The notes beneath the pieces were generated by a model that searched no databases, had not been told where the DNA came from, and was given only the letters and a program-made list of their open reading frames with translations. Position numbers and translations under genes: made by a program. This document shows, piece after piece, positions 5,131-23,768 of a stretch of DNA of 52,475 nt. The first letter of the stretch is position 1. Each line of letters opens with the position of its first letter. This DNA is from Candidatus Sericytochromatia bacterium. Lineage in GTDB: Bacteria > Cyanobacteriota > Sericytochromatia > S15B-MN24 > JAQBPE01. The stretch covers positions 1 to 52,475 of the forward strand of contig JAYKJB010000082.1 of assembly GCA_035285325.1 (NCBI GenBank), read 5' to 3'.

Positions 5131-5867
5131 TCCAATCTCGCGTACTCAAAACAGCTCAAGACCTGTGCTCGAGCATAATCAGCCGGCACCCCGATATCTA
5201 TGAATGTGGCGTCAGACGTCAACCCTACGACGTGTTGGCCAAGCTCTTGGCATCGAGGAAAAATTTCCCCTTCCAAGGAAAGGTAACCTTCGTGTCGTAT
5301 GAAGGGGTCCAAGGCGCGCGGATGCACCCAGTAAACACCACCGTTCGCCAGTTGCAAACCGGAGGTTTTGGAATGGGCAGCGGAATTGGAAAATTCGACA
5401 CGACCCGTTGCCGCGATAGTGACCGGAAGGTAGCGCCGCACATCGGTGGTAGGGAACAGTGAAATCACCCAATCACCACCCTGCACTTGGGCCTGCTGAT
5501 GAAGGTCCTGCAGGGCGACTTTGAAAAAAGTATCGCCGTTCAGCAGAATAAAAGGCTCGCGAAGTTGAAGGTTACGCTGACACAACATGAGCCCGCCCCC
5601 CGTCCCCAGTGGCCTCGGCTCCCTGACATAGACGATGGAGCAACCGAGATACGAGTCCCGGAAGTGAGACTCTATCACCTCGTGACGATAGCCTACCGAT
5701 AACACGAAGCGGCGCACCCCTTGCCGAACCCAGTACAGCAAAAGGTGCTCCAAAAAAGGCCGACCGGCCACAGGGGCCATCGGCTTGGGCAGGTCAGGCA
5801 CGGTATCACGCAGGCGGGTTCCCAATCCGCCTGCCAGAATGACTGCGACGGTGGGAAAGTTACTCAC
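5127..5867 (-). CDS. hddC: Sugar-1-phosphate nucleotidyltransferase, HddC-like (GDP-heptose synthesis)
   Basis: A 246-residue nucleotidyltransferase with the signature VILAGGLGTRLRDTVPDLPK (nucleotide loop and catalytic Lys), GRPFLEHLL, the base-contact region LGTGGGLM and the metal-binding FILLNGDTFF. It is short, with no C-terminal acyltransferase or beta-helix domain, as for HddC/WcbM, which condense D-glycero-D-manno-heptose 1-phosphate with GTP. The C-terminal FIDIGVPADYARAQ is the usual closing motif. The neighbouring HddA kinase and GMD-like dehydratase favour heptose and GDP over glucose and dTDP. It starts at a GTG (5867), overlapping the Nudix gene by 8 nt. A mannose-1-phosphate or glucose-1-phosphate transferase is the alternative. 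Confidence 0.8.
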   Translation of the reverse strand: MSNFPTVAVILAGGLGTRLRDTVPDLPKPMAPVAGRPFLEHLLLYWVRQGVRRFVLSVGYRHEVIESHFRDSYLGCSIVYVREPRPLGTGGGLMLCQRNLQLREPFILLNGDTFFKVALQDLHQQAQVQGGDWVISLFPTTDVRRYLPVTIAATGRVEFSNSAAHSKTSGLQLANGGVYWVHPRALDPFIRHEGYLSLEGEIFPRCQELGQHVVGLTSDATFIDIGVPADYARAQVLSCFEYARLD

Positions 5868-6453
5868 TGCTCGCCCAGTTAACCTCCGGAGCGCGACAAA
5901 AGCGCTCTCCGACCTCCCTCAGTGAACTGCGCCACAGGTCGAGTTGCAAGATTCCCCCTGCCAGTTGAAGAAGGCCCAAACCAGCAATTTGGAGGAACTC
6001 ACCACGAAGTGCAAACTGCAAAAGGTCACACCGCGGCACAAGTACAATCTCCGTTCCTGGCTCGGGCACAAAATGTGGCGTGCGCTCGGGAAACATGCCA
6101 AAAAACAGGTGGTCCATAATGCTAGTTCGATTCATCATCAGGCTGAATGACTTCCCCAATGGCAACAAAGGGCACCTCAATCCCGTTTCCTCCAAAATTT
6201 CTCGTCGAGCAGCAACCAATGGGCTTTCTCCGCGTTCAATTCCACCGGCGGGAATCTCAAGGGTGACGGTTTCCAGGTTCGGTCGGTATTGCCGAACCAT
6301 CACAAAGCGATCATCTTGATCCAAGACGCAACAAATAACTGAGTCAGGCCCAGTCATTCGATAGTAGGGACCATTTCCGCGACAGGGCTCCTCCGGCGCG
6401 GCTTCCAAATTAAAATACTCGGTTTCGAAAACGGGCTTAAATTCAGCAAACAC
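5860..6453 (-). CDS. Nudix hydrolase (ADP-ribose/NDP-sugar pyrophosphatase-like)
   Basis: A complete Nudix box, G-x5-E-x7-REILEETGL, lies at residues 70-92, preceded by FVMVRQYRPNLETVTLEIPAG, the hallmark of the ADP-ribose/NDP-sugar pyrophosphatase branch. Such enzymes hydrolyse the diphosphate of nucleotide sugars using Mg2+. The gene sits inside the operon between the dehydratase and the nucleotidyltransferase, overlapping the latter by 8 nt. It may therefore trim a GDP-sugar intermediate or by-product, or release a sugar phosphate as a true pathway step; neither can be decided from sequence. The start is a GTG at 6453. The C-terminal ~60 residues are Leu-rich and not recognisable. Confidence 0.82.
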   Translation of the reverse strand: MFAEFKPVFETEYFNLEAAPEEPCRGNGPYYRMTGPDSVICCVLDQDDRFVMVRQYRPNLETVTLEIPAGGIERGESPLVAARREILEETGLRCPLLPLGKSFSLMMNRTSIMDHLFFGMFPERTPHFVPEPGTEIVLVPRCDLLQFALRGEFLQIAGLGLLQLAGGILQLDLWRSSLREVGERFCRAPEVNWASSE

Positions 6454-6464: not shown

Positions 6465-7478
6465 CTAGCGCAGCAAGAATCGACCACCCTCAGTTTTCAC
6501 CCGCTTACGCCAGTAGTTCAGCAGGTCGCTCATGGTCTGCTCGAATGGAATTTCAGGGCGCCAACCTGTGTGCTGCCGGAATCTTTCAGTATTCGGAACC
6601 TGTAAATCGGCATCAATAGGGCGAAGTCTGTCGGGGTCGACTTCGACTCTGAATTCTTCTCTCAAGGGAGACAACCCGATCAGATATTCCAGAATTGCGC
6701 CGACCTCAAGACTATGGTTGCCACCAATATTATAAAAGGCACCGGCCTGAGGATTGACGGTCACCAGCAAGTAGTAGGCGCGCACCGCATCACGCACATC
6801 CGTTACCGTGCGCAAACTCTTGAGGTTGCCGACTCTCAGGACGGGCGGAAGAAATCCCGCCTCTGCTAGTGCAATCTGTTTAGCGAACGACGATTCAGCG
6901 AAAACATCCCCTCTTCGAGGCCCCGTGTGCGTGAACATGCGCGTACTCATCACGGTCATGCCATAGGCTTCGGCATAGAAACGACCAATAAGGTCGGTCC
7001 CGACTTTCGAAATCGCATAGGGAGATGCCGGGTGAAAGGTGCAATCCTCGTCAATGGGCAACTTCTCCCTCGGAACCCGCCCGAAGACCTCAGAAGAGGC
7101 GCATACGTGCACCACAGCCCCTGGCACGCTCCGCCGAATAGCCTCGAGAAGCCTGGTCGTGCCAAGAATGTTGGTATCGAGCGTATCGAGTGGCGCGTCG
7201 AAACTGGTTTTGGGAAAGCTCTGGGCTGCTAGATGAAAGATAACATCCGGTGTGAACTGATCAATCGCCCGATCGAGGGAGATGGAATCTTTCAGGTCAC
7301 CGTACACAAGCGCCACGCGATCCCCGCGGTTCACTCGGTCCAGCAAATGTGCCACGTTATCAAGAGGGCTGCGCCAACGTACCAGGCCCACCACATTCCA
7401 TTCTGTGTGGGCCAGGAGATAGTCCGCAAGGTGCGACCCCACCATCCCTGTAATGCCAGTAATGAATGCGGTGGTCAC
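6465..7478 (-). CDS. GDP-mannose 4,6-dehydratase-like SDR (likely GDP-heptose 4,6-dehydratase)
   Basis: Extended SDR of 337 residues with TGITGMVGSHL (cofactor loop, 7-17), the HLAAQSFPKTSF motif typical of GMD (Gmd has HLAAQSHV), CASSEVFG carrying the active-site Ser/Glu, and an intact catalytic YxxxK (Tyr154, Lys158, in SPYAISKVG). The loop TRMFTHTGPRRGD also matches the GMD family. GMD homologues in heptose clusters (DmhA/WcbK/DdahA) convert GDP-D-glycero-D-manno-heptose to the 4-keto-6-deoxy form. The HddA, HddC and RmlC-like neighbours suggest that substrate here. Start is a GTG at 7478, 9 nt after the preceding stop. A plain GDP-mannose 4,6-dehydratase is the alternative. Confidence 0.82.
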   Translation of the reverse strand: MTTAFITGITGMVGSHLADYLLAHTEWNVVGLVRWRSPLDNVAHLLDRVNRGDRVALVYGDLKDSISLDRAIDQFTPDVIFHLAAQSFPKTSFDAPLDTLDTNILGTTRLLEAIRRSVPGAVVHVCASSEVFGRVPREKLPIDEDCTFHPASPYAISKVGTDLIGRFYAEAYGMTVMSTRMFTHTGPRRGDVFAESSFAKQIALAEAGFLPPVLRVGNLKSLRTVTDVRDAVRAYYLLVTVNPQAGAFYNIGGNHSLEVGAILEYLIGLSPLREEFRVEVDPDRLRPIDADLQVPNTERFRQHTGWRPEIPFEQTMSDLLNYWRKRVKTEGGRFLLR

Positions 7479-7487: not shown

Positions 7488-8456
7488 CTAGTCTTTGAAA
7501 TAATTCTGCTTGCGTAGATATTCATCTTGGTTTTGCTGGAACCAGTTCCAGGTTTCCTCCAAGCCTTGGCGTAAAGGGGTGACCGGATTGTACTGAATCC
7601 AATCGCGAGCGCGACTGATATCCATCACTCGACGGGGAAACCCGGACGGCTTGCTGGTGTCGAAGACGTATTCAAAGTCGAGAAATTCCCGCAGTGTTTC
7701 AACTAGCTGTCGAACACTGTAACCAATCCCACTTCCCAAGTTGACGAAGTCGCCTCGGGTCCCGTAGTAAAGCGCCTGAATGACTCCCAATGCCACGTCG
7801 CGACTGTATGCAAAGTCCCGAACGGCCGAGCCATCACCCCATACCGTGACGGGATTTTCACCTCGATGTATCCGCATCATCAACGATGGAATCACCATGG
7901 CATTGTCTGGGTCAAAATTATCTCCAGGGCCATAAACATTGCAAGGGCGAACGATTGACCAGTCCAGACCACACTGTTGGCGATAAGCTTGAATTTGCAA
8001 TTCAGCCATACGCTTTGCCCAACCGGGGAAGGTGTCCATGGGAGGGCCATCTCGATTCTCGGTTTCGACGAATATCTCCGTGCTGCTGTAGGCACCGATG
8101 GAACTGGTATAGACGAGCTTCTGTACACGGTTGCGCCGCGCAGCCTCTAAGACATTTGTGTTGAACATCAACAAGGGCACAAGGAAACTGGCGGGCTTCG
8201 ATTGCGTGACCTCGATGGAACCCTTGAGACCAGCCAAATGGAATACGTAGTCGATGCCCGACGTTTGCTCCAAGCAAAACGTCAGCTCGGTGAGGTCTCC
8301 ATAGACATGCTCCACCTCTGGATGCACAGTCACTTGGTCTAGTGACACCAAACGTATGCGAGCGTTGGCCCCAGCAAGGAGGCGGGTGACCTCTCTTCCG
8401 ATCAGGCCCGTGCCCCCCGTGATAAGGCAGCGCTTTCCTTCAAAAAATTTGAGCAT
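7488..8456 (-). CDS. NAD-dependent epimerase/dehydratase (extended SDR), atypical active site
   Basis: Extended SDR of about 322 residues: CLITGGTGLIGREV at 10-23, the HLAGLKGS loop, YTSSIGAYSS carrying the Ser, and RPCNVYGPGDNF. It is the first gene of the minus-strand heptose operon. I start it at the ATG at 8456, because the 48 in-frame codons upstream are not protein-like. Oddity: the YxxxK Tyr is replaced by Pro144 and the segment reads PGWAKR, the same G-W-x-K-R variant as in the SDR at 3620-4615. It probably acts as a reductase or epimerase on a 4-keto nucleotide sugar; the two such genes could serve two alternative products or successive steps. Confidence 0.72.
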   Translation of the reverse strand: MLKFFEGKRCLITGGTGLIGREVTRLLAGANARIRLVSLDQVTVHPEVEHVYGDLTELTFCLEQTSGIDYVFHLAGLKGSIEVTQSKPASFLVPLLMFNTNVLEAARRNRVQKLVYTSSIGAYSSTEIFVETENRDGPPMDTFPGWAKRMAELQIQAYRQQCGLDWSIVRPCNVYGPGDNFDPDNAMVIPSLMMRIHRGENPVTVWGDGSAVRDFAYSRDVALGVIQALYYGTRGDFVNLGSGIGYSVRQLVETLREFLDFEYVFDTSKPSGFPRRVMDISRARDWIQYNPVTPLRQGLEETWNWFQQNQDEYLRKQNYFKD

Positions 8457-9124
8457 CTCATCGGGAAGCGACACGGTTTGGCCCACCACATTCACGAGCA
8501 ATGTGCGAAAACCTCGTTTGGACGCAATTGAGCCAGTCCCTTGAGCTACGCAATTCGAGCGAATCCAGAAATCCCCGCTCGACCGACCGAACGGGACCAC
8601 CTCGGACCGGACCAGCCAGGGTTTAGCGGCCGTGTGGGCAGTTCAGAACGCCCCTGGAGGAGCCCACCCATTCTACTTCAAATTCTCGATGGCCCCCAGA
8701 GGTTTTTACGAACTGGGGTTGAGCGACTGATAGATCGGAAAAGGCCCCCGCGCCAAACTGTCTGCGCACAACTGAACTCCCGACATCTGGCGGACTGGAA
8801 GGCGAAGATTTTTTGCAACTCGGTGACCAAGTTGCTGTTCGAGTTCACTTGCGCGTGTTTAATTGTGTAACGCCCCATCGGGGCCTGTAGAACGCTGGTG
8901 GCTGAACATCGCGGCATCGGGCAAAACACGTGAAACGAAGCATTCCGACCTCGAGAGCGACCAGTCTTGCACGTGTGTGGGCTACCCGGGGAGCCTCGGT
9001 CAGGGCGCAGACATCTAACAGCGCAATTCGAACGATTGCCTTGCAAACCCTGCTGGCTATCCCAACGGATAGATGAGCAGAGCCCGCCGGCTCCCAAAGA
9101 GAATCCGTACTTGAACAGGCTTGG
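8457..9124. promoter_or_regulatory. Divergent intergenic region between two sugar operons
   Basis: About 670 bases separate the minus-strand heptose operon (start 8456) from the plus-strand operon (start about 9125). Open frames here are rich in rare combinations and look non-coding. It must contain the promoters for both operons, but I see no pair of convincing -35/-10 boxes. A small inverted repeat (GCCCC-atc-GGGGC, about 8872-8884) is the only local structure noted, and it is too small to interpret. Confidence 0.4.
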
Positions 9125-10267
9125 TTGATAATCGTGAAACGTATTGCAATCCCAACTGGTGAAGAATTACCAATTGTCGGACAGGGCTGCAGTGGCATTG
9201 GGGAGGATGAACGGGCTGAGTCGGCCCGCAGCAAAGAGCAAATTTATGCCCTGGAGCTTGGGATTGACCTGGGGATGACCCTGCTTGATACGGCTGAAGG
9301 ATACGCATCAGGACATTCAGAGGAAATCGTGGGCCAAGTCATTCGCGGTAAGCGCGACAAGGTCTTCATCGCGACGAAATTTTCACCCGAAAATCACGAG
9401 TTTCCGGGGGTGATTCGCGCGGCCGAGGGTTCGCTGAGACGCCTCAAGACAGAATACATCGACCTTTACCAGATTCATTGGCCTAACCCGACCGTACCGA
9501 TCGAAGAAACTCTCCGGGCCCTGGAACATCTCCGTGACCAAGGAAAAATAAGGCACATTGGATTATCGAACTTTTCTGCTCGAGAAATGCACGTCGCACA
9601 GTCGAAACTGCTGAGAGGTCAGATTTTCAGCAACCAAGTTGAATACAATCTATTCGACCGATTCATCGAAACCTCGATCATGCCGCATTGCCTCTCGACC
9701 GACGCACTGGTCCTTGCCTACAGCCCTTTGGACAAGGGGAGAACGGTTGACGGTGATGATGGTCGACAGCTGCTCTCCACCTTGGCAGAGAAATATCAGC
9801 GAACCCCCTCCCAGATTGCCCTGAATTGGCTGACATCGCAGCCGTCGGTCATTGCGATACCAAAGGCCGTCCGTGTAGAGCACGTTCGACAAAATGCAGC
9901 GTCTACCGATTTCAAGTTATCTCAGGAAGACAAAGAGGCCATTGCACAGGTCTGTTCACGTGAACCTGCCTGGATCGATCCCGGTCATATTCGGGTGAGT
10001 TTGGCAGGCGAAGGCAACAAGAAGGTCTACCAGACTCGGGAAGAGGCGCTGTCGAACACGCTGGGCCTGTCACCCAGTCCAACAGAATTGGCTGAATTCA
10101 TCAGACAAGGGGAACCTACCAAACCAGTAAGGTTGGTAAAAAATGATGACCCCAGAGACGAATTTCCATATGATTTAATTGAGGGAAGACTGCGGTACTG
10201 GGCTTGGGTCATCGCGTTCAACGGAGAACGACCGGTCCCCGCCTATATAAGAATGGGCAAAAAATGA
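9125..10267 (+). CDS. Aldo/keto reductase with C-terminal ParB/Srx-like domain
   Basis: Residues 1 to ~285 form an aldo-keto reductase barrel: the tetrad region LLDTAEGYASG (Asp, Tyr), FIATKFSP (Lys) and YQIHWPNP (His), then IGLSNFSA and a C-terminal PSVIAIPKAV cofactor loop. It should reduce a carbonyl with NAD(P)H. The last ~93 residues (about 288-380) are extra and resemble a ParB/sulfiredoxin-like domain: ELAEFIRQG, a VRLVKN strand, DLIEGRLRYWA (about 350-360) and VPAYI, compared with LIDGRRRYxA and VPAYI in that superfamily. Start TTG 9125 has AGG 5 nt upstream; GTG 9134 is an equally likely start by homology. It is the first gene of the five-gene plus-strand module. AKR is certain; the ParB-like call is inference. 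Confidence 0.8.
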   Translation: MIIVKRIAIPTGEELPIVGQGCSGIGEDERAESARSKEQIYALELGIDLGMTLLDTAEGYASGHSEEIVGQVIRGKRDKVFIATKFSPENHEFPGVIRAAEGSLRRLKTEYIDLYQIHWPNPTVPIEETLRALEHLRDQGKIRHIGLSNFSAREMHVAQSKLLRGQIFSNQVEYNLFDRFIETSIMPHCLSTDALVLAYSPLDKGRTVDGDDGRQLLSTLAEKYQRTPSQIALNWLTSQPSVIAIPKAVRVEHVRQNAASTDFKLSQEDKEAIAQVCSREPAWIDPGHIRVSLAGEGNKKVYQTREEALSNTLGLSPSPTELAEFIRQGEPTKPVRLVKNDDPRDEFPYDLIEGRLRYWAWVIAFNGERPVPAYIRMGKK

Positions 10268-11046
10268 ATCAAGACAGCAGCAAGTCGCACCATAGCAATG
10301 ACCTGAGCGTCAAGAACTACTCAAGCTACCAGGAGCGAATCTTACGTGAAGAATTTGCAAGCCACTTTCGAAGCTGTCCGATACCAGATGATCAAATCCT
10401 CTCGAATCTAGGGCTGTTTCTCAACTCGAAATCATTGGCCCGACTGCTTTTCATGGACCACATCTATCGACAGATTGTCGACGTCATGGGTGTTGTGATG
10501 GAGTTTGGCACAAGGTGGGGTCCGAACCTGGCACAATTTTCAGCCCTGCGTGGAATCTATGAACCCTTCAATCGTCATCGCAAGATCATAGGATTTGATA
10601 CCTTCACCGGCTTCTTGAAAATTGACGCTCAAGACGGTCATTCCGACATGATGAGGGTGGGGCACCTCCGGGTCAGTGAAAATTATCAGACCTACCTGGA
10701 ACACATCATGCGGTTACAGGAGCAGGACAATCCGCTGGGACATATTCGGAAATTTGAAATAATTGGGGGAGATGCAACAAAAACCCTGCCAGAATATTTA
10801 GATAAACATCGTGAAACCATCATCGCCCTAGCCTACTTCGACTTGGACGTTTATGCCCCGACCAAGGCGTGTCTTGAAGCGATCAAGCCTCGCTTGGTGA
10901 AAGGCAGCGTGCTCGGCTTCGATGAATTGAACGATCCGGACTCCCCGGGTGAAACGGAAGCCCTTCTGGAAGTCTTTGGATTGAACAACGTACGCTTGAA
11001 ACGGTATCCCTATGCGTCCAGGACATCATATTTTGTCGTCGAATAG
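10264..11046 (+). CDS. SAM-dependent sugar O-methyltransferase, TylF/MycF-like
   Basis: A 260-residue class I methyltransferase-like protein. The SAM-binding strand reads VVMEFGTRWGPNL, followed by KIIGFDTFTGF, an acidic strand and ALAYFDLDVYAPTKACLEAIKP, where the DLDxY motif resembles the metal-binding Asp region of the TylF/MycF/NovP group. That family methylates hydroxyls of sugar residues in macrolide and surface-glycan pathways, using Mg2+. The ATG overlaps the reductase stop as ATGA (10264-10267), so the two are coupled. I infer methylation of the island's sugar, at nucleotide-sugar or glycoside level. Confidence 0.72.
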   Translation: MNQDSSKSHHSNDLSVKNYSSYQERILREEFASHFRSCPIPDDQILSNLGLFLNSKSLARLLFMDHIYRQIVDVMGVVMEFGTRWGPNLAQFSALRGIYEPFNRHRKIIGFDTFTGFLKIDAQDGHSDMMRVGHLRVSENYQTYLEHIMRLQEQDNPLGHIRKFEIIGGDATKTLPEYLDKHRETIIALAYFDLDVYAPTKACLEAIKPRLVKGSVLGFDELNDPDSPGETEALLEVFGLNNVRLKRYPYASRTSYFVVE

Positions 11047-11323
11047 AGTTCAGCCAAAATTCACGGAACCTTGCCCGTCCCAAAACGTGCAATGGAAACC
11101 GGACCATCCTGCGGAAACTCGATAGCCCTCAAATTTTTTGCGGTAAACCAAGCCAGACTTGTTGCATTCGAATCGCTTGGGGCCAAGGAGCATGGCCTGT
11201 GTCACTGGCCCGCACCGAACACAATTCCCCCTCCAATGGGCCAGCAGGAACACGTGACCTTGGCACTCCTTCACCCACGCCAACCTAGCAGGCAACGGTT
11301 TGAGCCCATTAGGGGAGAGCGCT

Positions 11324-12355
11324 TTGAATCCGACATTCGATGAAATGGAGGCTGGCGGGCTGCCTATTCCCATCGCTCCTCCATGTATCTCACCTGAGAA
11401 GCCGGTCCTACTTTTGGGAGCGGGGGGATTAATTGGAAATTATGTTCTGAACCTACTTGCAGCACGCGGGGCCCCCGTGGTGGCAACCTACCGAACGCGC
11501 GTGCCGCAATACAAACTGGGACAGACTGAAAACGTGCGACTCGTTCGATGGGACAGTTCTGAGTCTACTCTGGAGGCGTTGGAAAGAAATCCTGGCTGCG
11601 TGATTCATCTGGCGAACAACATTTTTCCCGGCGTTCAGCCCTCAGACCAGAAACTTCAACCACTGTTGGAACACGCAGACACCAACCTTGCCGTGCTGAA
11701 ATACTGCATCGCAACTCAGCCAGGGAAACTCATTTGGCTTAGCTCTTCGACTGGTTATTCAGGGCGAGTCAACGCGAGTGAAGACTCTTTTTTCATCGAT
11801 TCCCCCCAAAGTGCCGCGATTGGTTACGCCGTAAGGGCATTTGAAATGCAACTACAAGCTTTCGCATCATTGAGCGCGACGGACGTCCGCGTGATGAGAC
11901 CGACAACCGTGCTGGGCCCTCTGAAACTGTACAGAGAAAACCATAGCCACCACGCAGTTCGCTCGATACTGGCAGCAAAAAGCGGTGAAACCATCACCAT
12001 ATTTCAGCCTGAATTGAAGCGCGACTATATCTTCGCGATGGACCTGGCGGAACTCATCGTTGAAGAAATGGGCATCCCTCCGACTCCTTCATCCTATGAG
12101 GCCTACAACGTGGGCTCCGGGGCCGAGATATCTATTTCCGAAGCAATTCAACTCGTGCGTGCACTTTATCCGGGGGCCAACCCAATCGTGCAATTCAAAG
12201 ACACGCAAAGACCAGCGCAGATCTCCACATTGCCTCTTGATAAAAGCAGGAAACGTTATGTCTTCCGCCCAAGGGCATTCAAGGAATTCCTGGGAGAAAT
12301 CCTGGGTATCGATCAAGTCATATCCGCCATCCTTAACATAGAGGTGCCGTCGTGA
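11324..12355 (+). CDS. NAD-dependent epimerase/dehydratase-like SDR lacking the catalytic Tyr-Lys
   Basis: Extended SDR of 343 residues. The cofactor loop is LLLGAGGLIGNYVL, the core strand is VIHLANNIFP, the Ser region WLSSSTGYSG, and MRPTTVLGP the usual loop. Both canonical active-site residues seem absent: the YxxxK register reads Ile166-G-Y-A-Val170-R, so Tyr becomes Ile and Lys becomes Val. It resembles the G-W-x-K-R pattern of the SDRs at 3620 and 7488 and may be a diverged member of one subfamily. The TTG at 11324 is chosen because AGGGGAG lies 6 nt upstream; an ATG at 11345 has no ribosome site. Its end overlaps the radical SAM gene as GTGA. It may be a catalytically altered reductase or epimerase. 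Confidence 0.68.
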   Translation: MNPTFDEMEAGGLPIPIAPPCISPEKPVLLLGAGGLIGNYVLNLLAARGAPVVATYRTRVPQYKLGQTENVRLVRWDSSESTLEALERNPGCVIHLANNIFPGVQPSDQKLQPLLEHADTNLAVLKYCIATQPGKLIWLSSSTGYSGRVNASEDSFFIDSPQSAAIGYAVRAFEMQLQAFASLSATDVRVMRPTTVLGPLKLYRENHSHHAVRSILAAKSGETITIFQPELKRDYIFAMDLAELIVEEMGIPPTPSSYEAYNVGSGAEISISEAIQLVRALYPGANPIVQFKDTQRPAQISTLPLDKSRKRYVFRPRAFKEFLGEILGIDQVISAILNIEVPS

Positions 12356-13659
12356 AAGCCGGGTTCATCGTTCCGTCGTGGCATTACTGGGCCGACCCTT
12401 TCAAACTACAGCCCCTATGGGAAATGTATTATGCGACCGTATTAAATAAAGCGAATAAGGGAATCGAGGTTGAGATTTTTGACCTCCGAGGCGAAGGTCC
12501 GACTGGCCCTCAAGAAGGCTTCCTGGAGAAAATCCCAGAGCGAAAAATCTATCTCTTCTGGATCATGAAGTCAGGAGATGCCATCGAACTTGAGGCGATC
12601 GCAGCATCGCTCAAATCTCGAGACGCACAATGCGTGACAATCGCAGGCGGAACGCACGTGGATATGTGCACAGCCAGAGCGCTCGAATATTTTGATAAGG
12701 TCGTCACAGGCCCAGGGGAGTCAGCCTTGTGGGAAGCAATCAATTCAGTCGGTGATTCCAGTCAAAGACTGTTTCGTGGCGACTATAAAGTCGATAGATT
12801 CGACTCAACGCCTTATCCGGACAGGTCCCTTCTGCCAGCGGAACGAGTGATAAATAGCAAATTATTCAGTCAGTACGGCGAAGAGCCAGCCACGTCAATT
12901 TACATGTCGCGAGGCTGTATCTATCGATGTGGATTCTGCGTTTACAATGTACCCAATGAACTCCAGGTCAGGCACCCGGAGATGCTTAGAAGCGAAATTC
13001 AATATCTTAAATCAACCTATAAAATCAAAGCTATTAATTTACGCGACGAAGTAGCGATTCACCCAAGCCCCAAAATATCTGAGCAGTGCTTGAACATTTT
13101 GAAAGACGAGGGGGTGATTTGGAGAGGGCAAACGACCACCTTGGCTTCCACCAAGCAATTGAAACTCGCCGCGGAGTCTGGATGTGTGGAACTCTCCGTT
13201 GGCGTGGAAACTGTTGACCCAAAGGTCATGAAGATCATCAAGAAAGACTGGCAGAATCTCACTGGTATTCGTCGTTTTTTCGCAGACGCCAAAGAGTTTG
13301 GGATCAAGGTGAAGATCTGCCTGATTTTGGGTCTTCCGGGAGAATCGGCCGACATTGTCGAGAAGACTGTTAAATTCTTGGAGGAAATTGACCCGGACTT
13401 CGCCTCAGTATCGGGATTCTGTCCGGTGCCAGGTTCCCCGATCGCCAAGGACCCTGAATCCTATGGGATAGAGATGATTGACCAGGACCTGAGCAAACAC
13501 GCTCACCTCCTCTACAGGTTTTCAAAGGACGAAGAAGTGGGACTCCCCTTCAGATATAAGCCGGATGGTCCCTGGGGGCCGACCTTTACCCGTGAACAGA
13601 TTATTGGCAATATCCAAAAGATCCAGGATTGGCTGAGCAGTCGAAACAAGACGTACTAG
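12352..13659 (+). CDS. Radical SAM protein, B12-binding-domain type
   Basis: A 435-residue radical SAM enzyme. The 4Fe-4S motif CIYRCGFC (Cys189, Cys193, Cys196) follows a Rossmann-like N-terminal half (CVTIAGGTHVD, VVTGPGESALW) laid out like the cobalamin-binding domain of class B radical SAM enzymes. The cobalamin His motif DxHxxG is not seen, so cobalamin binding may be lost. Later Elp3-like motifs (SVGVETVDPKVMKIIKK, ILGLPGES) confirm the family. Such enzymes perform C-methylation or other C-H chemistry. In this operon the target is likely the sugar. GTG start with GAGGTG 5 nt upstream. The reaction itself cannot be assigned. Confidence 0.8.
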   Translation: MKAGFIVPSWHYWADPFKLQPLWEMYYATVLNKANKGIEVEIFDLRGEGPTGPQEGFLEKIPERKIYLFWIMKSGDAIELEAIAASLKSRDAQCVTIAGGTHVDMCTARALEYFDKVVTGPGESALWEAINSVGDSSQRLFRGDYKVDRFDSTPYPDRSLLPAERVINSKLFSQYGEEPATSIYMSRGCIYRCGFCVYNVPNELQVRHPEMLRSEIQYLKSTYKIKAINLRDEVAIHPSPKISEQCLNILKDEGVIWRGQTTTLASTKQLKLAAESGCVELSVGVETVDPKVMKIIKKDWQNLTGIRRFFADAKEFGIKVKICLILGLPGESADIVEKTVKFLEEIDPDFASVSGFCPVPGSPIAKDPESYGIEMIDQDLSKHAHLLYRFSKDEEVGLPFRYKPDGPWGPTFTREQIIGNIQKIQDWLSSRNKTY

Positions 13660-13722
13660 TGTATTCACGTTGACTTATTCGAGCCAGCCGAATTTGGAGA
13701 ATCATCAACTGGGGCCGTTTCC

Positions 13723-14652
13723 ATGCCACTCAATTCCATCTCCGAGGAATACCTGAAGTCTCTTGAGAGCATTTTCCACTCAGGCCGTGAAGCTCGGCCG
13801 ACTGTCTCAAATTGGCCCAGGATGCCAAACTATAGCGAAGAAGTCACAACAGACCTACGTGCCCACCATCACGCCGTTGCAAGGTCATTCTTCAAGGCAG
13901 AGACGCTCAATCACCTGAAGCTCGAAATCGACCGATGTTTCGGAGAACCTGAGTGTATACAAAGCCCCATACGGGTCCCCCCTCGTACAGGCCAAACAGA
14001 GAAGCAAACTCTGAGAGAGATTGAGTCATTACCGAGACTAAGTGAGTACGAGGTGTCTCTGGGCACTCAATACCTGAAAGAGAACACTTCCTACATCCAG
14101 TTGAAGACTCCTCTTAAAAACGTGGCAGCCCTCTTACCCGTCATTTTAGATCTTCGTCTGCTCCGGACCGCTCAAGAATATCTTGGATGCTTCCCGCTAC
14201 TCACATATGTCAAAGTGCAAAGGACGTGGGCTAACCAATTACCCGAAACAAATACACAGCTGTGGCATATAGATATCGATGCTTTCCGAATGCTAAAGGC
14301 ATTCATCTTCCTCGATGAGATAGACTCAAATACTGGAGTCACGCGCTTTATCGAGGGAAGCCACTTCTTTGAACAAGGAAATTATCACTACCAAGACAGA
14401 TGGTCGGAAGAGGACATTGAAAATAAGTTTCCATTCGCGCGGAGAGTGACCCCAAAACTGGCCTATGGAGACATGCTATTACTGGACACCTTGCAATTAC
14501 ACCGCGGCGCAAGACCTCGGGGCAGGGACAGAACAGCCATCATTGCCAACTTCTGTGCTCACCCGGAACAAGCTTCTGGAGGATGCCTTGACATGAGAGA
14601 AAAAGACTTCAAGGCTCTTCATACGTTGCAGAAGAGAGCCCTGACAACCTGA
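13723..14652 (+). CDS. Phytanoyl-CoA dioxygenase (PhyH)-like Fe(II)/2-oxoglutarate oxygenase
   Basis: A 309-residue protein with the PhyH-type metal triad: LWHIDIDAF gives His182 and Asp184, and LQLHRGARP gives the distal His260 plus Arg264, which usually binds 2-oxoglutarate. The intervening VTRFIEGSH also fits the family. These enzymes hydroxylate, desaturate or epimerise at unactivated carbons. It lies 63 nt after the radical SAM gene on the same strand and ends the plus-strand module. A role in oxidising the sugar is likely but unproven. The start ATG has a modest GGGG upstream. Confidence 0.78.
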   Translation: MPLNSISEEYLKSLESIFHSGREARPTVSNWPRMPNYSEEVTTDLRAHHHAVARSFFKAETLNHLKLEIDRCFGEPECIQSPIRVPPRTGQTEKQTLREIESLPRLSEYEVSLGTQYLKENTSYIQLKTPLKNVAALLPVILDLRLLRTAQEYLGCFPLLTYVKVQRTWANQLPETNTQLWHIDIDAFRMLKAFIFLDEIDSNTGVTRFIEGSHFFEQGNYHYQDRWSEEDIENKFPFARRVTPKLAYGDMLLLDTLQLHRGARPRGRDRTAIIANFCAHPEQASGGCLDMREKDFKALHTLQKRALTT

Positions 14653-14900: not shown

Positions 14901-15827
14901 TCAGTGGTCTTGAATAACGGTTTGAAGTATGGACGCCGAGTCTACCTTCCCGATTTTTCGCAACAAGCGTCGGTCACCCGAAATGTAATAAAACTTGCTC
15001 TCTGGGGCGATCATTTTGAAGGGTATCTTCAAACAATTGGTTGCGACGAGGGAGCCCACCAGTTGGCCAATTCCATTGGAGTAGGATTCTTCTAGAGTAT
15101 AAATTTTCGAAGCATTGGAAAGAAGCGCCAGGAAATCATCACCATATACCGAGCTCGGCCTGAAGAGGTCAATCACGGACACTTGCTGTCCAATACCTTG
15201 CTCAATAGCCGGGAGAACCTCCAACAATTCATGAACGATCGCCCCTGTGGAAATGAACAAGACTCTTCCAGATTTCTTGACCACCGAAAATCCTGTTTCC
15301 ACCGAGAATTCGGAATCAAGTTTGAGATTGGGCAAAACACCTTTCTCGATACGAATGTAATTGGCCCTCTTAGAATTGATAGCAAATTCCACAAAGGCAC
15401 CGGTGTTGTGAGGGTCTGATGAATTCAGCACCGTGAGTCCCGGAATTGTCATCACGGCGGGTAATTCCTGCAATCCGTGATGAGTAGGACCGTCGGTGCT
15501 ATAGGTGAAACCGGCACCCACACTCACGATGCTAACGGGCAATTGCATGGCCGCGACATCCAGGGTCAGTTGTTCCAAGACTCTCAAACTTACAAACGGG
15601 CTAATCCCATAAGCAAACACAATCTTTCCACTGGACGCCAACCCAGCCGCCACACCAATCATATTTTGCTCTGCAATCCCGACGTTCACAAAACGTTCAG
15701 GCATGGATGTTTCAAATTCCCGTAGCGCAAATGCACCATGATCGGCGCTTAGCAGAACAATTCGTTCGTCCTGCCTTGCAAAATGAACTAATGTCTCAAA
15801 AAACGCATCGCGCATGTCCACAGTCAT
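14901..15827 (-). CDS. Transketolase, C-terminal (pyrimidine-binding and transketolase-C) subunit
   Basis: A 308-residue protein equal to the C-terminal half of a transketolase. MRDAFFETLVHFARQDERIVLLSADHG begins the pyrimidine-binding domain, RFVNVGIAEQNMIGVAAGLA carries the conserved catalytic Glu (IAEQ), and YSTDGPTHHGLQE and a Rossmann-like C-terminal domain follow. It pairs with the N-terminal half at 15836-16657, 8 nt upstream. Together they form a heterodimeric thiamine-diphosphate enzyme that moves a two-carbon ketol unit between sugars. Split transketolases of this type recur in surface-glycan clusters. Here it could lengthen or branch the heptose. The ATG at 15827 is the only reasonable start. 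Confidence 0.85.
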   Translation of the reverse strand: MTVDMRDAFFETLVHFARQDERIVLLSADHGAFALREFETSMPERFVNVGIAEQNMIGVAAGLASSGKIVFAYGISPFVSLRVLEQLTLDVAAMQLPVSIVSVGAGFTYSTDGPTHHGLQELPAVMTIPGLTVLNSSDPHNTGAFVEFAINSKRANYIRIEKGVLPNLKLDSEFSVETGFSVVKKSGRVLFISTGAIVHELLEVLPAIEQGIGQQVSVIDLFRPSSVYGDDFLALLSNASKIYTLEESYSNGIGQLVGSLVATNCLKIPFKMIAPESKFYYISGDRRLLRKIGKVDSASILQTVIQDH

Positions 15828-15835
15828 TTGAGATT

Positions 15836-16657
15836 TTATTTCCCGTCTTGAAGCTCAGCCAAGGCCAATACAAACCGGTCTAAATCTATCCCTCCGTGGT
15901 GCCATTCTGGTTGATTTTCCATGAATGACACTCCCTTTCCTTTGACGGAATTCGCGATGACCACGCTTGGCTTGCCCGACGTCTTTGAGAAGTGAGTTGC
16001 CCAGGCTGAATTCAGGTCTTCGAATTGATGGCCATCAATCACTCGCACATCCCAGCCAAAAGCCATCCATTTTTTCGCGAAAGGTTCAAGGCGGTTGATA
16101 CTCTCCGTGGAGCCGTGAGTGATCAGCCGGTTGCGGTCAACAATGGCACACAGATGATGTAGCTCGTGGTGAGCAGCAAACATAGCCGCCTCCCAAACAG
16201 ACCCTTCGTAGCACTCTCCGTCTCCCATCAGGACCACGGTCTTTCGATTGTTCCCGTCAAGCTTGTCAGCGAGCGCCATCCCGCATCCTATCGGCAATCC
16301 GTGGCCAAGCGAGCCAGAGAGGAACTCAACTCCGGGAATTCGAGGGTCAGGATGTTCGCCGAGGAGTTGGCCTTGATTGAGATACGGCATTTCTTCCCGC
16401 GAAAAAAAGCCCAGATCGGCAAGGACCGCATAGAGCGCGATACCGGCGTGTCCCTTACTCAACAAAAATCGGTCACGACCGCCCCACAGAGGGTTGGCCG
16501 GGTCAAACCGAAGAAATTTCCCGTAGTAAAGACTTACCAGTATTTCAACGATGGAATAGGCTCCTCCAATATGTCCTTTCCCAGCCGAATGTACTGCCCG
16601 AAGAATATCAATTCTCAACTCTCTCGATTTTTCGTTGAGTTGGCTCGGACTTAACAT
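15836..16657 (-). CDS. Transketolase, N-terminal (thiamine-diphosphate) subunit
   Basis: A ~273-residue TPP-binding half: ELRIDILRAVHSAGKGHIGGAYS, then RFLLSKGHAGIALYA, GSLGHGLPIGCGMA, and the TPP/Mg motif GDGECYEGSVWEAA ending at the Asn of VDRNRL. These are all typical transketolase N-terminal motifs. I begin it at the ATG at 16657 (GGAG 9 nt upstream), since transketolase homology starts just after it; an ORF extends upstream to 16768 but looks non-native. It precedes the C-terminal subunit by 8 nt on the same strand. Function and substrate are as for that partner. Confidence 0.83.
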   Translation of the reverse strand: MLSPSQLNEKSRELRIDILRAVHSAGKGHIGGAYSIVEILVSLYYGKFLRFDPANPLWGGRDRFLLSKGHAGIALYAVLADLGFFSREEMPYLNQGQLLGEHPDPRIPGVEFLSGSLGHGLPIGCGMALADKLDGNNRKTVVLMGDGECYEGSVWEAAMFAAHHELHHLCAIVDRNRLITHGSTESINRLEPFAKKWMAFGWDVRVIDGHQFEDLNSAWATHFSKTSGKPSVVIANSVKGKGVSFMENQPEWHHGGIDLDRFVLALAELQDGK

Positions 16658-16891
16658 TGACAATATCTCCATTGGCATCCAAGAAATAGCCCTCTGCGTG
16701 ACGAGAGGTGTCGTAGTTGAGAACTCCAGACCTTCGGACGCTGTGGCTGAGGGGCGCTTCAGCGACATCGGGATTCGTGTTTCGGCCTGCCCTAAACATC
16801 AAGGTCGATTTTGAGGCCTTGAATGCTCGTCGCGCTCACCACGAACGGCATCTCAATAAGGTCACGGCCTAAAAGTCTCCCATCATCCCGC

Positions 16892-17944
16892 CTAAAATGG
16901 GCCGCTGAAATGTTTGTAGTAATCTCGTATCGGCTGCTTGGCAGGCAACGGTATTCGGTGGTTTGAGTCTGCGGAATACAATTTGGCAATTGCATCGACC
17001 AGGTCGTGCATATCCGGGTAGTACAGATCTTCCAACGCCTTGGCAGTCGGGCAGGGCGATGGCTGCATCCCCAAACTCACGGTTGGGGCCTTGAGCATAC
17101 CGGGGTCGACCTCGTTAATCGCGCGATTGACCTCTGCTGAAACGCCATAAGCCACCCAAGAAGTGTCAGCGACGAGGAGCCGCCCCGTCTTGCTCACGCT
17201 GCTCAGAATCATTGCATAATCCGGATGCGACACCGAGTGCAGATCGATCACTTCAACAGAGATGCCATAATCTGCCACGTAGTTGGCCGCCCGGTTCGCC
17301 TCCAGCAACATCACAGAAGTTGCAACAATGGTGACATCCGTCCCCTCACGGATTTTGTAAGAACCGAAGATAGATATTTCTGAATCCAGCTGTCTCTCCT
17401 CAAATTCCAATTCATACATGAGACGATGCTCAAACATGACGACTGGGCCTCGATGTTTCTCGATGGCAAATCGATAACTGGATAGGATGCTTTGTGGCGA
17501 GGCCGGCATGACCACAACCAGCCCTGGAATATGGGCCAGAAGAGACTGCAAACTCTGAGAGTGCTGTGCACCCTGCCCCCAACTGCGACCGATGATCATT
17601 CTCATCATCATGGGGACTTCAAACAGACCGCCAAACATGTAGCGATATTTTGCAGCGAGGTTGATTAACTGGTTAAACACCAACAGGCCAAAATCAGCTC
17701 GAATGTGGGTATTGATGGGATACATTCCGTTGAGTGCAGCCCCAATACAAATGCCAGCGATGGAGTCCTCTGCCAACGGAGTTTCGATCACGCGATTGGG
17801 ATGGCGTTCCGCCAAGCCACTGGTTGTGCCAAAAAGCCCCTTGAAGTCCGACACGCCTTGGCCAATGATCAGAGTGTGGTCGTGGGCTTCCATGGCCCAG
17901 TTCATGGCATCAGCGAGCGCATCTCGATAGGTCCTAGAGGACAT
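16892..17944 (-). CDS. 2-oxoacid dehydrogenase E1 beta-like subunit (TPP-dependent)
   Basis: A 350-residue protein with the E1 beta architecture: MSSRTYRDALADAMNWAM, FGTTSGLAERHPNRVIETPLAEDSIAGICIGAAL (conserved Glu/Asp region), MRMIIGRSWGQGAQHSQ, the PASPQSILSSYRFAI loop, and a transketolase-C domain with a VEVIDLHSV strand. It overlaps the alpha gene by 11 nt, so they are co-translated and should form an alpha2beta2 enzyme. No E2/E3 subunits lie nearby, so it probably uses the hydroxyethyl-TPP intermediate differently, as AviB1/B2-like pairs in avilamycin biosynthesis are thought to do when adding a two-carbon branch to a sugar. Confidence 0.85.
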   Translation of the reverse strand: MSSRTYRDALADAMNWAMEAHDHTLIIGQGVSDFKGLFGTTSGLAERHPNRVIETPLAEDSIAGICIGAALNGMYPINTHIRADFGLLVFNQLINLAAKYRYMFGGLFEVPMMMRMIIGRSWGQGAQHSQSLQSLLAHIPGLVVVMPASPQSILSSYRFAIEKHRGPVVMFEHRLMYELEFEERQLDSEISIFGSYKIREGTDVTIVATSVMLLEANRAANYVADYGISVEVIDLHSVSHPDYAMILSSVSKTGRLLVADTSWVAYGVSAEVNRAINEVDPGMLKAPTVSLGMQPSPCPTAKALEDLYYPDMHDLVDAIAKLYSADSNHRIPLPAKQPIRDYYKHFSGPF

Positions 17945-18878
17945 CTGTCAACAAATCCTCCAGCGTCGGCAACGGCGATGCGTTGGCCATCTGTAAAGCC
18001 GCTTCAATTTCCGTGGTGATTACAGCTCGATATGAATCGAGTACCGAGGAGGACTGCATCAGGGGGTCTTTGGCCTTCCAAGCGTTCATCTCTGCTTCGG
18101 AGCGATAGCCTGCGTGGAAGTCCTCCCCCGGCCCGACGTGTTCACGATAGCGGGCCGTGTGAACCTTGATAAATACGGGGCACTGCTCTTGGCGAACCTT
18201 TTCGATTGCGACCCCAGCCAGTGCCCTGACATTCTCAGGGTCATAGCCCTCCTTCAACTCATAATAAGCGATGCCATAGGCTTCAATGAGGCGCCGCACG
18301 GAGAAAGCCTGCCGGGCTGAGCAGGATGTATGCACGGCCAATCCATTGTCTTCACACAGGAAGAGAACAGGAACCTGATGCAACGCGGCAAAGTTCAGGG
18401 ACTCGTGAAACACACCTTGTTCCATAGCCCCATCGCCGAAATTGGCAACAAAAACCCTGCCGGTCTCGCCTCGAATTTTTGATGCCAGTGCCGCTCCCAC
18501 CGCGTGAGAGATCGACGAGGCCACCACTGCGGAAGCCCCGATGACACCACAATCTGGAGCCGCCAGATGCATTGAACCGGCTTTTCCTTTGCTCAACCCA
18601 TCCCGTCTGCCCATCAACTCAGCGAAAAACGCCGGCAACGGCCCGCCTTTTGCCAGGTAAAAGGCGTGGCCGCGATAGTTGATAAAGACCCAATCATCTC
18701 GACGGAGATGTGCGCAGACACCTACAGCCACTGCCTCCTGACCGATAGAGAGATGTACAGGGCTTTGAATCTGATCGGTCGGATACAACTCGATGATCTT
18801 TTCTTCTACCATGCGAATGCGCAGACACTGGTAGAGAAGAGATTCTCTGAGGCTTTCGGCGTTAGATGGGCTGGGCAT
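17934..18878 (-). CDS. 2-oxoacid dehydrogenase E1 alpha-like subunit (TPP-dependent)
   Basis: A ~314-residue TPP-binding subunit: SPVHLSIGQEAVAVGVCAHL, INYRGHAFYLAKGG, GRRDGLSKGKAGSMHLA, and the TPP motif GDG at 148-150 with its Asn at 178 (CEDNGLAVHT). The His-rich phosphorylation-loop region of mitochondrial E1 is not apparent. The ATG at 18878 is preferred (AGAGG 8 nt upstream); a longer frame starts at 18941. It overlaps the beta subunit. In this setting the pair probably decarboxylates a 2-oxoacid (pyruvate is the usual donor) and transfers the two-carbon fragment to a sugar ketone; this is inference from location and the missing E2/E3 partners. Confidence 0.85.
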   Translation of the reverse strand: MPSPSNAESLRESLLYQCLRIRMVEEKIIELYPTDQIQSPVHLSIGQEAVAVGVCAHLRRDDWVFINYRGHAFYLAKGGPLPAFFAELMGRRDGLSKGKAGSMHLAAPDCGVIGASAVVASSISHAVGAALASKIRGETGRVFVANFGDGAMEQGVFHESLNFAALHQVPVLFLCEDNGLAVHTSCSARQAFSVRRLIEAYGIAYYELKEGYDPENVRALAGVAIEKVRQEQCPVFIKVHTARYREHVGPGEDFHAGYRSEAEMNAWKAKDPLMQSSSVLDSYRAVITTEIEAALQMANASPLPTLEDLLTDVL

Positions 18879-18957
18879 GGTACTGGCCTCTGATACTTGG
18901 CTGCCGCATCTTATCCAATACGAACGGCCCTCACAGGGCAATGGCGACGCTTGAGCA

Positions 18958-20499
18958 TCAGGCCCCTTGCAATGAATGCTCTCCGACGGCTGTGTCAGCC
19001 GAGCCCTTTAGCCGCCGAATGCGAAGCAAAGCTTTTTCTCGTTCCGACGTCAGACCAAGTTGCTGTGCAGCGGCCAACACACCATACCAGGCGTCCACGT
19101 CGGAGTCATCCCTATGGACCGCGAGTTGAAACCACTCGAGGGCCTGATGATAATTCTCCCGGGTCAATTCGAATTGGCCGAGGTTGATCAACCCATCTTG
19201 CTGCGTCCAGGTACCTTCTCGAACATAGCCGGCAAGTTGGTCAAAGACCAGGCTGGCCTCACCCAGACGATTCAAGCAAAACAAAACCGCGCCGTGCAGG
19301 TGAAGGATACCGATGTAAAGCGGAAACAATTTGCGCGCCCCTCTCAAGGCTGACTCAGCCTCTTCAAGTCTGTGTTCAGCACTCAAAACACGCGCCCAGA
19401 CTTCGTGGCTTTCAGGAAAGTTCGGGAATCGCTCAAGCAAATCTCCGGCGATTTGCTTGGCAGCGCTGAGATCTCCCGTCTTCAAAAATTCCATCGCTTC
19501 GGCAACATGTGCCTCGGCGGCATCACTGGTCAACCGCAAGCCTTTCGCGAACCGTTGCTGACTTTCCTCATCGCGATCAGCAGCCGCCCATTGCCGCAGC
19601 AATTCGGCGGCCCTTCTTTCGACCAAACGGTAAACAGAATCGCCAGCATCACGCGGATTTGACGTGCGAAGCCGTTTCGACTGGCGCCGTTCAAGTTGAA
19701 CCAACTGAATCTTCCGCATCGGGGGTAATTGAGACGACTCTCGCCAAACCGCATGCAGCGTGTTGACCGCCTCAGTCAGGGCAGTGTCATCGTCGTGCCT
19801 AGTCGGAATCAGTAATTCGCGCAAGCGCTCAGATTCCTTCACGCGAACAGGGAACGTACAGTTGAAGAACTGCTCCCAGAACAAGAGATTCTGCATCCGT
19901 TGCGTTTCCCCTATCTGGACCCGCAAGGTTGATTGAAGAGGATGGAAGCGCCCAATCATCTGAGCCAATGAATTAAGCCAGGTATCATCGTACCAAAATG
20001 GAAAATACTCCGTAAAAATTCTGCCCAACGCGTTTGCCCATTCAGCACTGATCAAGAAAGTTGAGGCGAAATTCTTACCATTAATCTGATCCCTGAGAAA
20101 AACCAAGGCTAACCGGTCGGGGTAATAAGAGAATGCTTGCCTGACCTCCTCATCCCATCCAAAAGTCTCATATCGCAACTTGTCACCACCTGGGCAATAG
20201 ATCCCAGGATTACTCGTGCAGGCCCGTCGCAATGTGTTGCAAATTTCGCCTTGTGTCAGAAGTGGGGGACCTTCGATCACGTGAACTTTTATGATAGGAC
20301 CCACGAGTTTCTGCAGATCCAAACTTTCTGACTCGTCATCGTTGTCCCGGTACACCCATACATCAATCAAGTCTGGACGGGCGACGGTGTCGCGAACGGA
20401 TAGCAGATATCGGCCAAGGGCCTCCGGACGTCCCCTGGATGCCACCAAGACACTGATGAAATCGGGGTTGTCCACAGGTTTAACAACATCGAGTGGCAT
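18958..20499 (-). CDS. Glycosyltransferase-like protein with C-terminal TPR repeats
   Basis: About 513 residues. The N-terminal ~280 residues look like a GT-A-type domain: FISVLVASRGRPEALGRYL, IDVWVYRDNDDE, GGDKLRYETFGWDEE, then a FWYDDTWLN segment. The rest is helical repeats (DLSAAKQIAGDLLERFPNF, LINLGQFELTRENYHQALEW) like TPRs. The GT-A call is weaker than for the gene at 318, because the canonical DxD motif is not obvious. It may glycosylate the sugar acceptor or a protein. The ATG at 20499 has GAGG 5 nt upstream; a TTG at 20535 extends the frame. It lies between E1 alpha and gmhA in the same direction, so probably one operon. Confidence 0.6.
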   Translation of the reverse strand: MPLDVVKPVDNPDFISVLVASRGRPEALGRYLLSVRDTVARPDLIDVWVYRDNDDESESLDLQKLVGPIIKVHVIEGPPLLTQGEICNTLRRACTSNPGIYCPGGDKLRYETFGWDEEVRQAFSYYPDRLALVFLRDQINGKNFASTFLISAEWANALGRIFTEYFPFWYDDTWLNSLAQMIGRFHPLQSTLRVQIGETQRMQNLLFWEQFFNCTFPVRVKESERLRELLIPTRHDDDTALTEAVNTLHAVWRESSQLPPMRKIQLVQLERRQSKRLRTSNPRDAGDSVYRLVERRAAELLRQWAAADRDEESQQRFAKGLRLTSDAAEAHVAEAMEFLKTGDLSAAKQIAGDLLERFPNFPESHEVWARVLSAEHRLEEAESALRGARKLFPLYIGILHLHGAVLFCLNRLGEASLVFDQLAGYVREGTWTQQDGLINLGQFELTRENYHQALEWFQLAVHRDDSDVDAWYGVLAAAQQLGLTSEREKALLRIRRLKGSADTAVGEHSLQGA

Positions 20500-20621
20500 C
20501 AAGACCTCATTCTCGGACCTCGACACGTCCGTCAACTCAGGGCGGCCTTGTTCAGAATCTTCGACAACACCGCCAACGCTCTTGAGTTCTCAGACGGAAG
20601 CGTTTCAGGCGATTCTTTGTT

Positions 20622-21212
20622 CTAGAGGTTCGGGAACATGATGCGTTCAACGAGAGCCACCAAGCTGTGTTCGATGGAGAGAAACGTCTCCTGGATAAGT
20701 TGGGTGCTGCTTGAGGGAACGACCACAAAGACATCCGCGGACATGCTTCGGTCCAAGGTTTCCCCTGCTAGGAGAACGCCTCGCATCTTCATACGGCACG
20801 CTTCCTGCAACGCCAGCGCGACGTTGACCGAACGACCGCTGGTGGAAATTCCAAGCAATACATCACCGGGGGAGCCCAACGCTTCTACCTGACGCGCAAA
20901 GACAGTGTCAAACGATTCATCGTTGGCGTGAGCAGTCAACACTGAGGTGTCCGTGGTAAGCGCCAGCGCTGGCAACCCCCTTCGCACGCGCCGCAGATCC
21001 AGTCGACAAACAAATTCCGCAGCAAGGTGCTGACAATCTGCAGCACTGCCTCCATTGCCGCAGATCAACAGCTTGTGCCCCCTAATGAAGGCATCGGCAA
21101 TCAACGTCGCGGCCTCCAAGACCGAATCCAAGGAGGTCTCAAGCGTGCGCTGCTTCAACGCCGCACTGGCCAGAAAATGCTCGATGACACTCTGTTTGGC
21201 AGCTTCAATCAC
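20622..21212 (-). CDS. gmhA: Phosphoheptose isomerase (sedoheptulose 7-phosphate isomerase)
   Basis: A 196-residue SIS-domain protein. The family fingerprint KLLICGNGGSAADCQHLAAEF (Glu after AA being the catalytic base), HANDESFDTVFARQVEALG, GISTSGRSVNVALAL and QLIQETFLSIEHSLV with the second catalytic His all match GmhA. It converts D-sedoheptulose 7-phosphate to D-glycero-D-manno-heptose 7-phosphate, the substrate of the HddA-type kinase at 2634. No GmhB phosphatase (1,7-bisphosphate to 1-phosphate) is in the window. It starts at a GTG without an obvious ribosome site and appears to be the first gene of the lower minus-strand block. Confidence 0.9.
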   Translation of the reverse strand: MIEAAKQSVIEHFLASAALKQRTLETSLDSVLEAATLIADAFIRGHKLLICGNGGSAADCQHLAAEFVCRLDLRRVRRGLPALALTTDTSVLTAHANDESFDTVFARQVEALGSPGDVLLGISTSGRSVNVALALQEACRMKMRGVLLAGETLDRSMSADVFVVVPSSSTQLIQETFLSIEHSLVALVERIMFPNL

Positions 21213-23715: not shown

Positions 23716-23768
23716 ACCGGTCTGACCTCGGCCGAAGGGATCCACACCTCTCGGCGTTGTGAGCCACG

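Follow-up and report, generated by a model that had tools for sequence, protein, structure and literature searches.

The DNA analysed here, a stretch of 52,475 nucleotides from a Candidatus Sericytochromatia bacterium (hereafter the window), is the whole of contig C82 (JAYKJB010000082.1) of a 3.8 Mb draft genome; beyond its base 1 the sequence lies outside the coverage. At 14901-18878 it contains four intact, co-directional genes on the minus strand for two systems dependent on thiamine diphosphate (ThDP), i.e. an E1 alpha/beta pair related to that of pyruvate dehydrogenase (PDH) and a split transketolase (TK). Judging from their sequences and surroundings, we consider it probable that both enzymes are carboligases which add two-carbon units to nucleotide-activated keto-sugars, the E1 pair acting on guanosine diphosphate (GDP)-6-deoxy-4-keto-heptose. 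New relative to known systems are the predicted GDP-heptose acceptor, the surface-glycan setting, and the joint presence of both ThDP systems.

The four genes are part of a minus-strand row that runs from gmhA (21212-20622) through a tetratricopeptide repeat (TPR) protein, E1 alpha and E1 beta to the two TK halves, TktN and TktC; the open reading frames (ORFs) of E1 alpha and E1 beta overlap by 11 bases. An earlier note on this DNA had placed a split TK and an E1 pair beside gmhA. These genes are confirmed, but the start that it gave for TktN (16657) is an internal ATG of an ORF extending to 16768. The surrounding island (about 2001-21000 of the window) has a GC content of 52%, compared to 67% from 22000 to the contig end, as would be expected of horizontal acquisition.

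The window E1 pair is not a pyruvate dehydrogenase E1. E1 alpha matches the Pfam domain E1_dh (6e-48), and E1 beta matches PDH E1 beta-like (3.6e-69, below the curated cut-off). The ThDP motif is retained in the sequence of the pair, and residues E59 and H128 of E1 beta, which by analogy with PDH E1 we take to be the catalytic Glu and His, are invariant in the family alignment. Identity of E1 alpha to PDHs amounts to 35-39%, as against 50-64% to members of its own family. At the site where PDHs have GHSMADP, E1 alpha carries an EH[VC]G loop in 77 of 97 pairs; E1 beta ends in GPF, rarely in GPY or GPL, in 83 of these pairs and in no housekeeping PDH, and loop and tail occur together in 76. In a tree of 61 concatenated alpha-beta pairs, with support values from the Shimodaira-Hasegawa-like approximate likelihood ratio test (SH-aLRT), the PDHs form one side of a branch with support 100. 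The window pair lies opposite, in a clade of 24 (SH-aLRT 100) with homologs from Pelagibacteraceae, Nitrospirota, Marinimicrobia, Myxococcota, Bacteroidota, Spirochaetota and others, and the wider family takes in DPANN archaea. Three E2 genes are present in the genome, on contigs C21, C56 and C85, each of which also carries housekeeping E1 genes: C56 combines PDH E1 alpha, E1 beta and E2, and more E1 and E2 genes are found on C85 and C21. We distinguish this pair from PDH on two grounds: a PDH with its E2 is encoded on another contig of the genome, and the window pair belongs to a separate clade. The earlier note had described a pair without E2/E3 and had named tight grouping with central-metabolism dehydrogenases, with E2/E3 genes close by, as grounds for rejecting its reading. 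Neither such a grouping nor a nearby E2 was observed: no E2 was found on contig C82 or in the 62 long loci compared with it (E3 was not searched for).

The family is variable in its gene organization. Two cyanobacterial genomes (2.1-2.3 Mb) possess, in GmhA-HldE clusters, a fused alpha-beta E1, which is one chain of 686-688 residues with both loop and tail. Furthermore, in 11 of the 36 long close-clade loci (L042, L044, L046, L048, L054, L063, L069, L070, L072, L077 and L078) the heptose cluster holds two E1 pairs side by side, the second of which belongs to a distinct clade (SH-aLRT 100); most of these loci have no TK. The second pair and the TK occur together in one locus and each of them alone in 10, so that mutual replacement is only a trend (p = 0.12). 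As separate observations, the family pairs of DPANN archaea (Woesearchaeota, Nanoarchaeota and Undinarchaeota; L106, L109 and L112) have HldE or GmhA nearby in two of the three loci, and L011 (G011:C35:54760-55722), from the same class as the window, holds an E1 alpha relative with two in-frame TGA codons, which may be a decayed gene, an assembly error or a case of recoding.

The window split TK is likewise not the housekeeping TK. The closest solved relatives of TktN and TktC are 6yak (N-chain, 2e-66) and 6yaj (C-chain), respectively, both chains of a true split TK. A split gene alone is unremarkable, because the housekeeping TK is also split in this class, in the present genome on contig C49. 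The window TK, however, falls into a separate surface-cluster TK clade (SH-aLRT 100) apart from the housekeeping TK, and the expectation of the earlier note that it is more than a gene of pentose metabolism is supported. The two types differ in the sugar-phosphate site, which in human TK consists of Arg318, Ser345, His416 and Arg474. All four residues are kept in 4 out of 4 housekeeping split TKs and in two PDB references, whereas His is replaced by Gly in each of 30 distinct surface-cluster TktC sequences and Ser is lost in 25. In the window TktC, which has lost Ser and His and kept both Arg, the canonical full site is incomplete. The catalytic Glu is retained in every TktC compared, and the ThDP fold is present.

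The genes that accompany the TK form a recurrent module with it. Among E1 loci, a split TK is present in all nine that contain a strong relative of the aldo-keto reductase (AKR), counting L055, where TktC was detected by tblastn only, and in all eight that contain a strong relative (>300 bits) of the S-adenosylmethionine (SAM)-dependent methyltransferase; beside another split TK lies a TylF-like relative of this methyltransferase. A split TK is found with RfbF-RfbG-RfbH in three genomes of the window's phylum (L176, L177 and L179); scores reach the curated level for RfbF and RfbH in each of them and for RfbG in two, and no YerE-sized gene was seen in these clusters. RfbF-RfbG-RfbH lie on the route to cytidine diphosphate (CDP)-3,6-dideoxy-4-keto-glucose, which YerE branches in yersiniose synthesis (PMC12247030). 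This neighborhood is the best hint that surface-cluster TKs branch keto-sugars, and it suggests TK-branched dideoxyhexoses in L176, L177 and L179.

According to the homology of its enzymes, the sugar of the island is a GDP-heptose. The pathway set comprises GmhA, HddA, HddC, a GDP-heptose 4,6-dehydratase and an epimerase, with HddA and HddC below curated cut-offs; contig C132 of the genome encodes a GmhB-like protein that scores just under its cut-off. The dehydratase matches the Campylobacter jejuni GDP-manno-heptose 4,6-dehydratase at 1.5e-106, versus 2e-38 for the best GDP-mannose dehydratase, and the best solved relatives of the RmlC-fold epimerase are the C. jejuni GDP-4-keto-heptose epimerases. 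The published C. jejuni GDP-heptose pathway follows the same precursor route, and its modification pathways share with the island GmhA, HddA, HddC, the 4,6-dehydratase, a 3,5-epimerase and reductases of the short-chain dehydrogenase/reductase (SDR) type. The C. jejuni paper, in contrast, names no ThDP enzyme; neither thiamine nor transketolase appears anywhere in it.

The link to heptose genes extends to other loci. As the co-occurrence check proposed in the earlier note brought out, heptose genes accompany each of the two ThDP systems in phyla that are not related to one another; the combination is not peculiar to the window, since 17 other loci carry both. Culturable carriers include Marinomonas aquimarina and, for the E1 pair, Catenovulum maritimum and Azospirillum oleiclasticum. 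GmhA, HddA or HldE is present in 49 of 55 long tail-type loci (at least 12 kb), versus 3 of 12 control sugar loci, which were selected for a split TK without an E1 pair and come from one phylum (p = 2e-5). In many loci, E1 beta is directly followed by a GDP-sugar dehydratase, a maker of 4-keto-sugars. The heptose-E1 cassettes of the Nitrospirota loci L047, L052, L055 and L057 adjoin the flagellar genes flgN, flgK, flagellin-type/flgL and fliW, a neighborhood which suggests that the cassette sugar glycosylates flagellin in these bacteria.

In our model, the island would supply a surface glycan with at least one unusual sugar in GDP-activated form. Sedoheptulose-7-phosphate would be converted to GDP-manno-heptose by GmhA, HddA and HddC together with a GmhB whose gene lies elsewhere in the genome, and the dehydratase at 6465 would turn this product into GDP-6-deoxy-4-keto-heptose, which the epimerase and reductases may then tailor. 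The E1 pair, working without E2 and E3, would form hydroxyethyl-ThDP from pyruvate for an attack on the keto carbon of the GDP-keto-heptose, with an acetyl-branched tertiary alcohol as the predicted product. By analogy, the split TK might transfer a hydroxyacetyl unit, via dihydroxyethyl-ThDP, to a keto-sugar. The AKR is a candidate for reducing the new branch ketone, just as the AKR Pau7 reduces the acetyl branch in the paulomycin pathway, and the methyltransferase may methylate the branch, capping a hydroxyl. The earlier interpretation, which had proposed an octose or a 4-C-branched heptose, is thus partly supported as a whole: its product is one possibility among several, and an octose does not result from a two-carbon branch, as a heptose plus two carbons has nine carbons, not eight. 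A bolder extension, which we regard as unlikely, is that the E1 pair and then the split TK (elsewhere the second E1 pair) act on one GDP-heptose. The resulting sugar, with about eleven carbons and either two branches or an extended chain, would be new to the literature and would be a decoration of flagellins or surface glycans across many phyla.

Some observations weigh against the proposed carboligase function. The loci, chosen for their resemblance to the window, are not independent of each other, and six long tail-type loci are without a detected heptose gene. The two phosphate-site Arg residues are retained in the TK and Ser is kept in 5 of the 30 surface-cluster sequences, so phosphorylated donors are still possible. 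One could also imagine that the heptose is a substrate of the E1 pair alone, and that the module of TK, AKR and methyltransferase makes another component of this glycan, an unrelated sugar or alditol. We tend to doubt this, although it is possible: relatives of the TK and the methyltransferase occur together without E1 or heptose genes (L176 and L178), and the TK is missing from most E1 loci, but no sugar-nucleotide dehydratase other than the GDP-heptose one was recognised in the island, which hence offers no obvious source of a second keto-sugar. The E1 pair, for its part, might extend a carbon chain by placing the two-carbon unit on an aldehyde, i.e. an open-chain or phosphorylated heptose or a compound made by a neighboring enzyme, and not on a ring ketone. 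ThDP carboligases also accept aldehydes, and heptose genes accompany the E1 family whether they are of the GDP (HddA/HddC) or of the HldE type; nevertheless, chain extension appears quite improbable in view of the 4-keto-sugar that the dehydratase directly after E1 beta would supply in many loci, and of the known antibiotic-pathway relatives, which branch ketones.

The remaining explanations assign one of the two systems to ordinary metabolism. If the split TK were a pentose-phosphate enzyme in a heptose operon, it would only supply sedoheptulose-7-phosphate, the substrate of GmhA; the position of gmhA in the same gene row and the general TK motifs kept in TktN would fit this role. It is made very improbable by the separate housekeeping TK and the residue losses described above, by the association of the TK with AKR and methyltransferase in E1 loci, and by its relatives in CDP-dideoxyhexose clusters without GmhA. 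There is even less reason to believe that the E1 pair belongs to an ordinary 2-oxo-acid or acetoin dehydrogenase that borrows its E2 from elsewhere and makes acetyl-CoA. The identity to PDH E1 and the three E2 genes in the genome would allow such a function; yet the PDH E2 lies beside its own E1 and the other E2s on contigs with other E1 genes, the long loci lack E2, and the changed loop and tail, the fused forms and the link to heptose genes set the family apart.

Several known systems resemble those of the window. The alpha-KADH2 carboligases (AviB1/B2, Pau11/Pau12, KbDH alpha/beta) are, like the window pair, PDH-E1-like pairs in sugar clusters without E2 (in the window, E3 was not part of the search), and we expect the window pair, too, to take a two-carbon unit from pyruvate and place it on a keto-sugar, although AviB was compared by description, not by sequence. 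They differ from the window pair in its location in a surface-glycan island and its predicted GDP-heptose acceptor. The nearest available pair of an antibiotic producer, from a Streptomyces plasmid (polyketide-type cluster, GPY tail), takes an uncertain place beside the family; its sole use was that of an outlier in the E1 tree. With PDH E1 (alpha2-beta2), the window pair shares the fold family, the ThDP motif and the catalytic Glu and His, but it has no E2, another loop, an extra C-terminal tail and a separate clade. The split TKs of the miharamycin and amipurimycin pathways are also encoded in keto-sugar clusters, and hydroxyacetyl transfer to a keto-sugar is proposed, and unproven, there too; they belong to Streptomyces antibiotic clusters, whereas the window clade is found in surface-glycan clusters of many phyla and has Gly at the His416 site. 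YerE likewise performs ThDP-dependent two-carbon branching of a nucleotide 4-keto-sugar for a surface polysaccharide, and window-type TKs sit with RfbFGH, but it is a flavin-binding single chain of the decarboxylase type, from another enzyme family, with a CDP-dideoxyhexose as acceptor. A 2025 review attributes sugar branching in lipopolysaccharides to YerE-like enzymes, and branching of the E1 and transketolase types to secondary metabolites (PMC12247030). In the open-access literature, no direct precedent was found for heptose or O-antigen clusters that contain an E1 or a TK. The Coxiella virenose and streptose clusters were considered as a precedent and rejected: the papers mention no transketolase, and the virenose paper mentions no E1 gene.

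The features discussed are listed in the table. The plus-strand enzymes at 11300..14652 could, to judge from their position, belong to the pathway and possibly carry out further tailoring; these SDR, B12-radical-SAM and PhyH-like genes have few relatives in other cassettes. Outside the island, the GC-rich region 23001-32508 contains very long ORFs overlapping on both strands (1258 amino acids on the plus strand, 1232 on the minus strand), and none of the plus-strand long ORFs tested there has a Pfam match.

Table. Genes and sites of the island, in window coordinates, and fused E1 genes in locus coordinates
Feature	Position	Strand	Basis or remark
HddA-like heptose-7-phosphate kinase	2634..3623	-	top NCBIfam match NF049969 1e-42, below cut-off
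Fcl1, SDR	3620..4615	-	closest: GDP-mannose 3,5-epimerase and GDP-fucose synthase
RmlC-fold epimerase, closest to GDP-4-keto-heptose 3,5-epimerase	4612..5130	-	PDB 8db5 1.6e-30
HddC-like heptose-1-phosphate guanylyltransferase	5127..5867	-	top NCBIfam match NF049965 2.8e-43, below cut-off
NUDIX protein, recurrent in cassette	5860..6453	-	recurrence across loci
GDP-heptose 4,6-dehydratase (Gmd-like), putative source of 4-keto sugar	6465..7478	-	PDB 7us5 1.5e-106
Fcl2, SDR closest to GDP-fucose synthase; candidate reductase	7488..8600	-	homology
AKR of TK module; candidate branch ketoreductase	9125..10267	+	homology, co-occurrence
SAM methyltransferase of TK module	10204..11046	+	homology, co-occurrence
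SDR epimerase, B12-binding radical SAM enzyme, PhyH-like oxygenase	11300..14652	+	Pfam
TktC, C-terminal half of surface-cluster split TK	14901..15827	-	Pfam Transket_pyr + Transketolase_C (5.7e-28)
Gly104 codon of TktC, at human TK His416 site	15516..15518	-	alignment
TktN, N-terminal ThDP-binding half	15836..16768	-	Pfam Transketolase_N 7e-35
E1 beta of E2-free ThDP pair (putative carboligase)	16892..17944	-	Pfam/NCBIfam, PDH E1 beta fold relatives, clade
FSGPF C-terminal tail of E1 beta, family signature without counterpart in PDH	16895..16909	-	pair alignment
E1 alpha	17934..18878 (ORF could begin at 18941)	-	Pfam E1_dh
EHVGPGED loop of E1 alpha, in place of PDH loop GHSMADP	18120..18143	-	pair alignment
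TPR protein	18958..20535	-	between gmhA and E1 alpha; profile match
GmhA, sedoheptulose-7-phosphate isomerase (SIS_2)	20622..21212	-	one gene beyond E1 alpha; sole clear copy in genome
Fused E1 alpha-beta	L173:7717-9774; L174:7864-9930		GmhA-HldE clusters; L174 copy directly followed by split TK

Systems of the E1 type and of the transketolase type are thus present in surface and flagellar glycan clusters of many bacterial phyla and some archaea. The E1 family is widespread and linked to heptoses, and the literature that we found discusses it for antibiotic pathways only. If the proposed carboligase function is true, branched heptoses are predicted to form a large class that has so far gone unseen, and the EHxG loop together with the xGPF tail would be a signature that sorts carboligases from dehydrogenases among the proteins annotated as PDH E1. 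The family would then be a rich source of candidate biocatalysts for making chiral tertiary alcohols, and keto-sugar branching by split transketolases, so far an untested idea, would gain genomic support from the surface-cluster enzymes.

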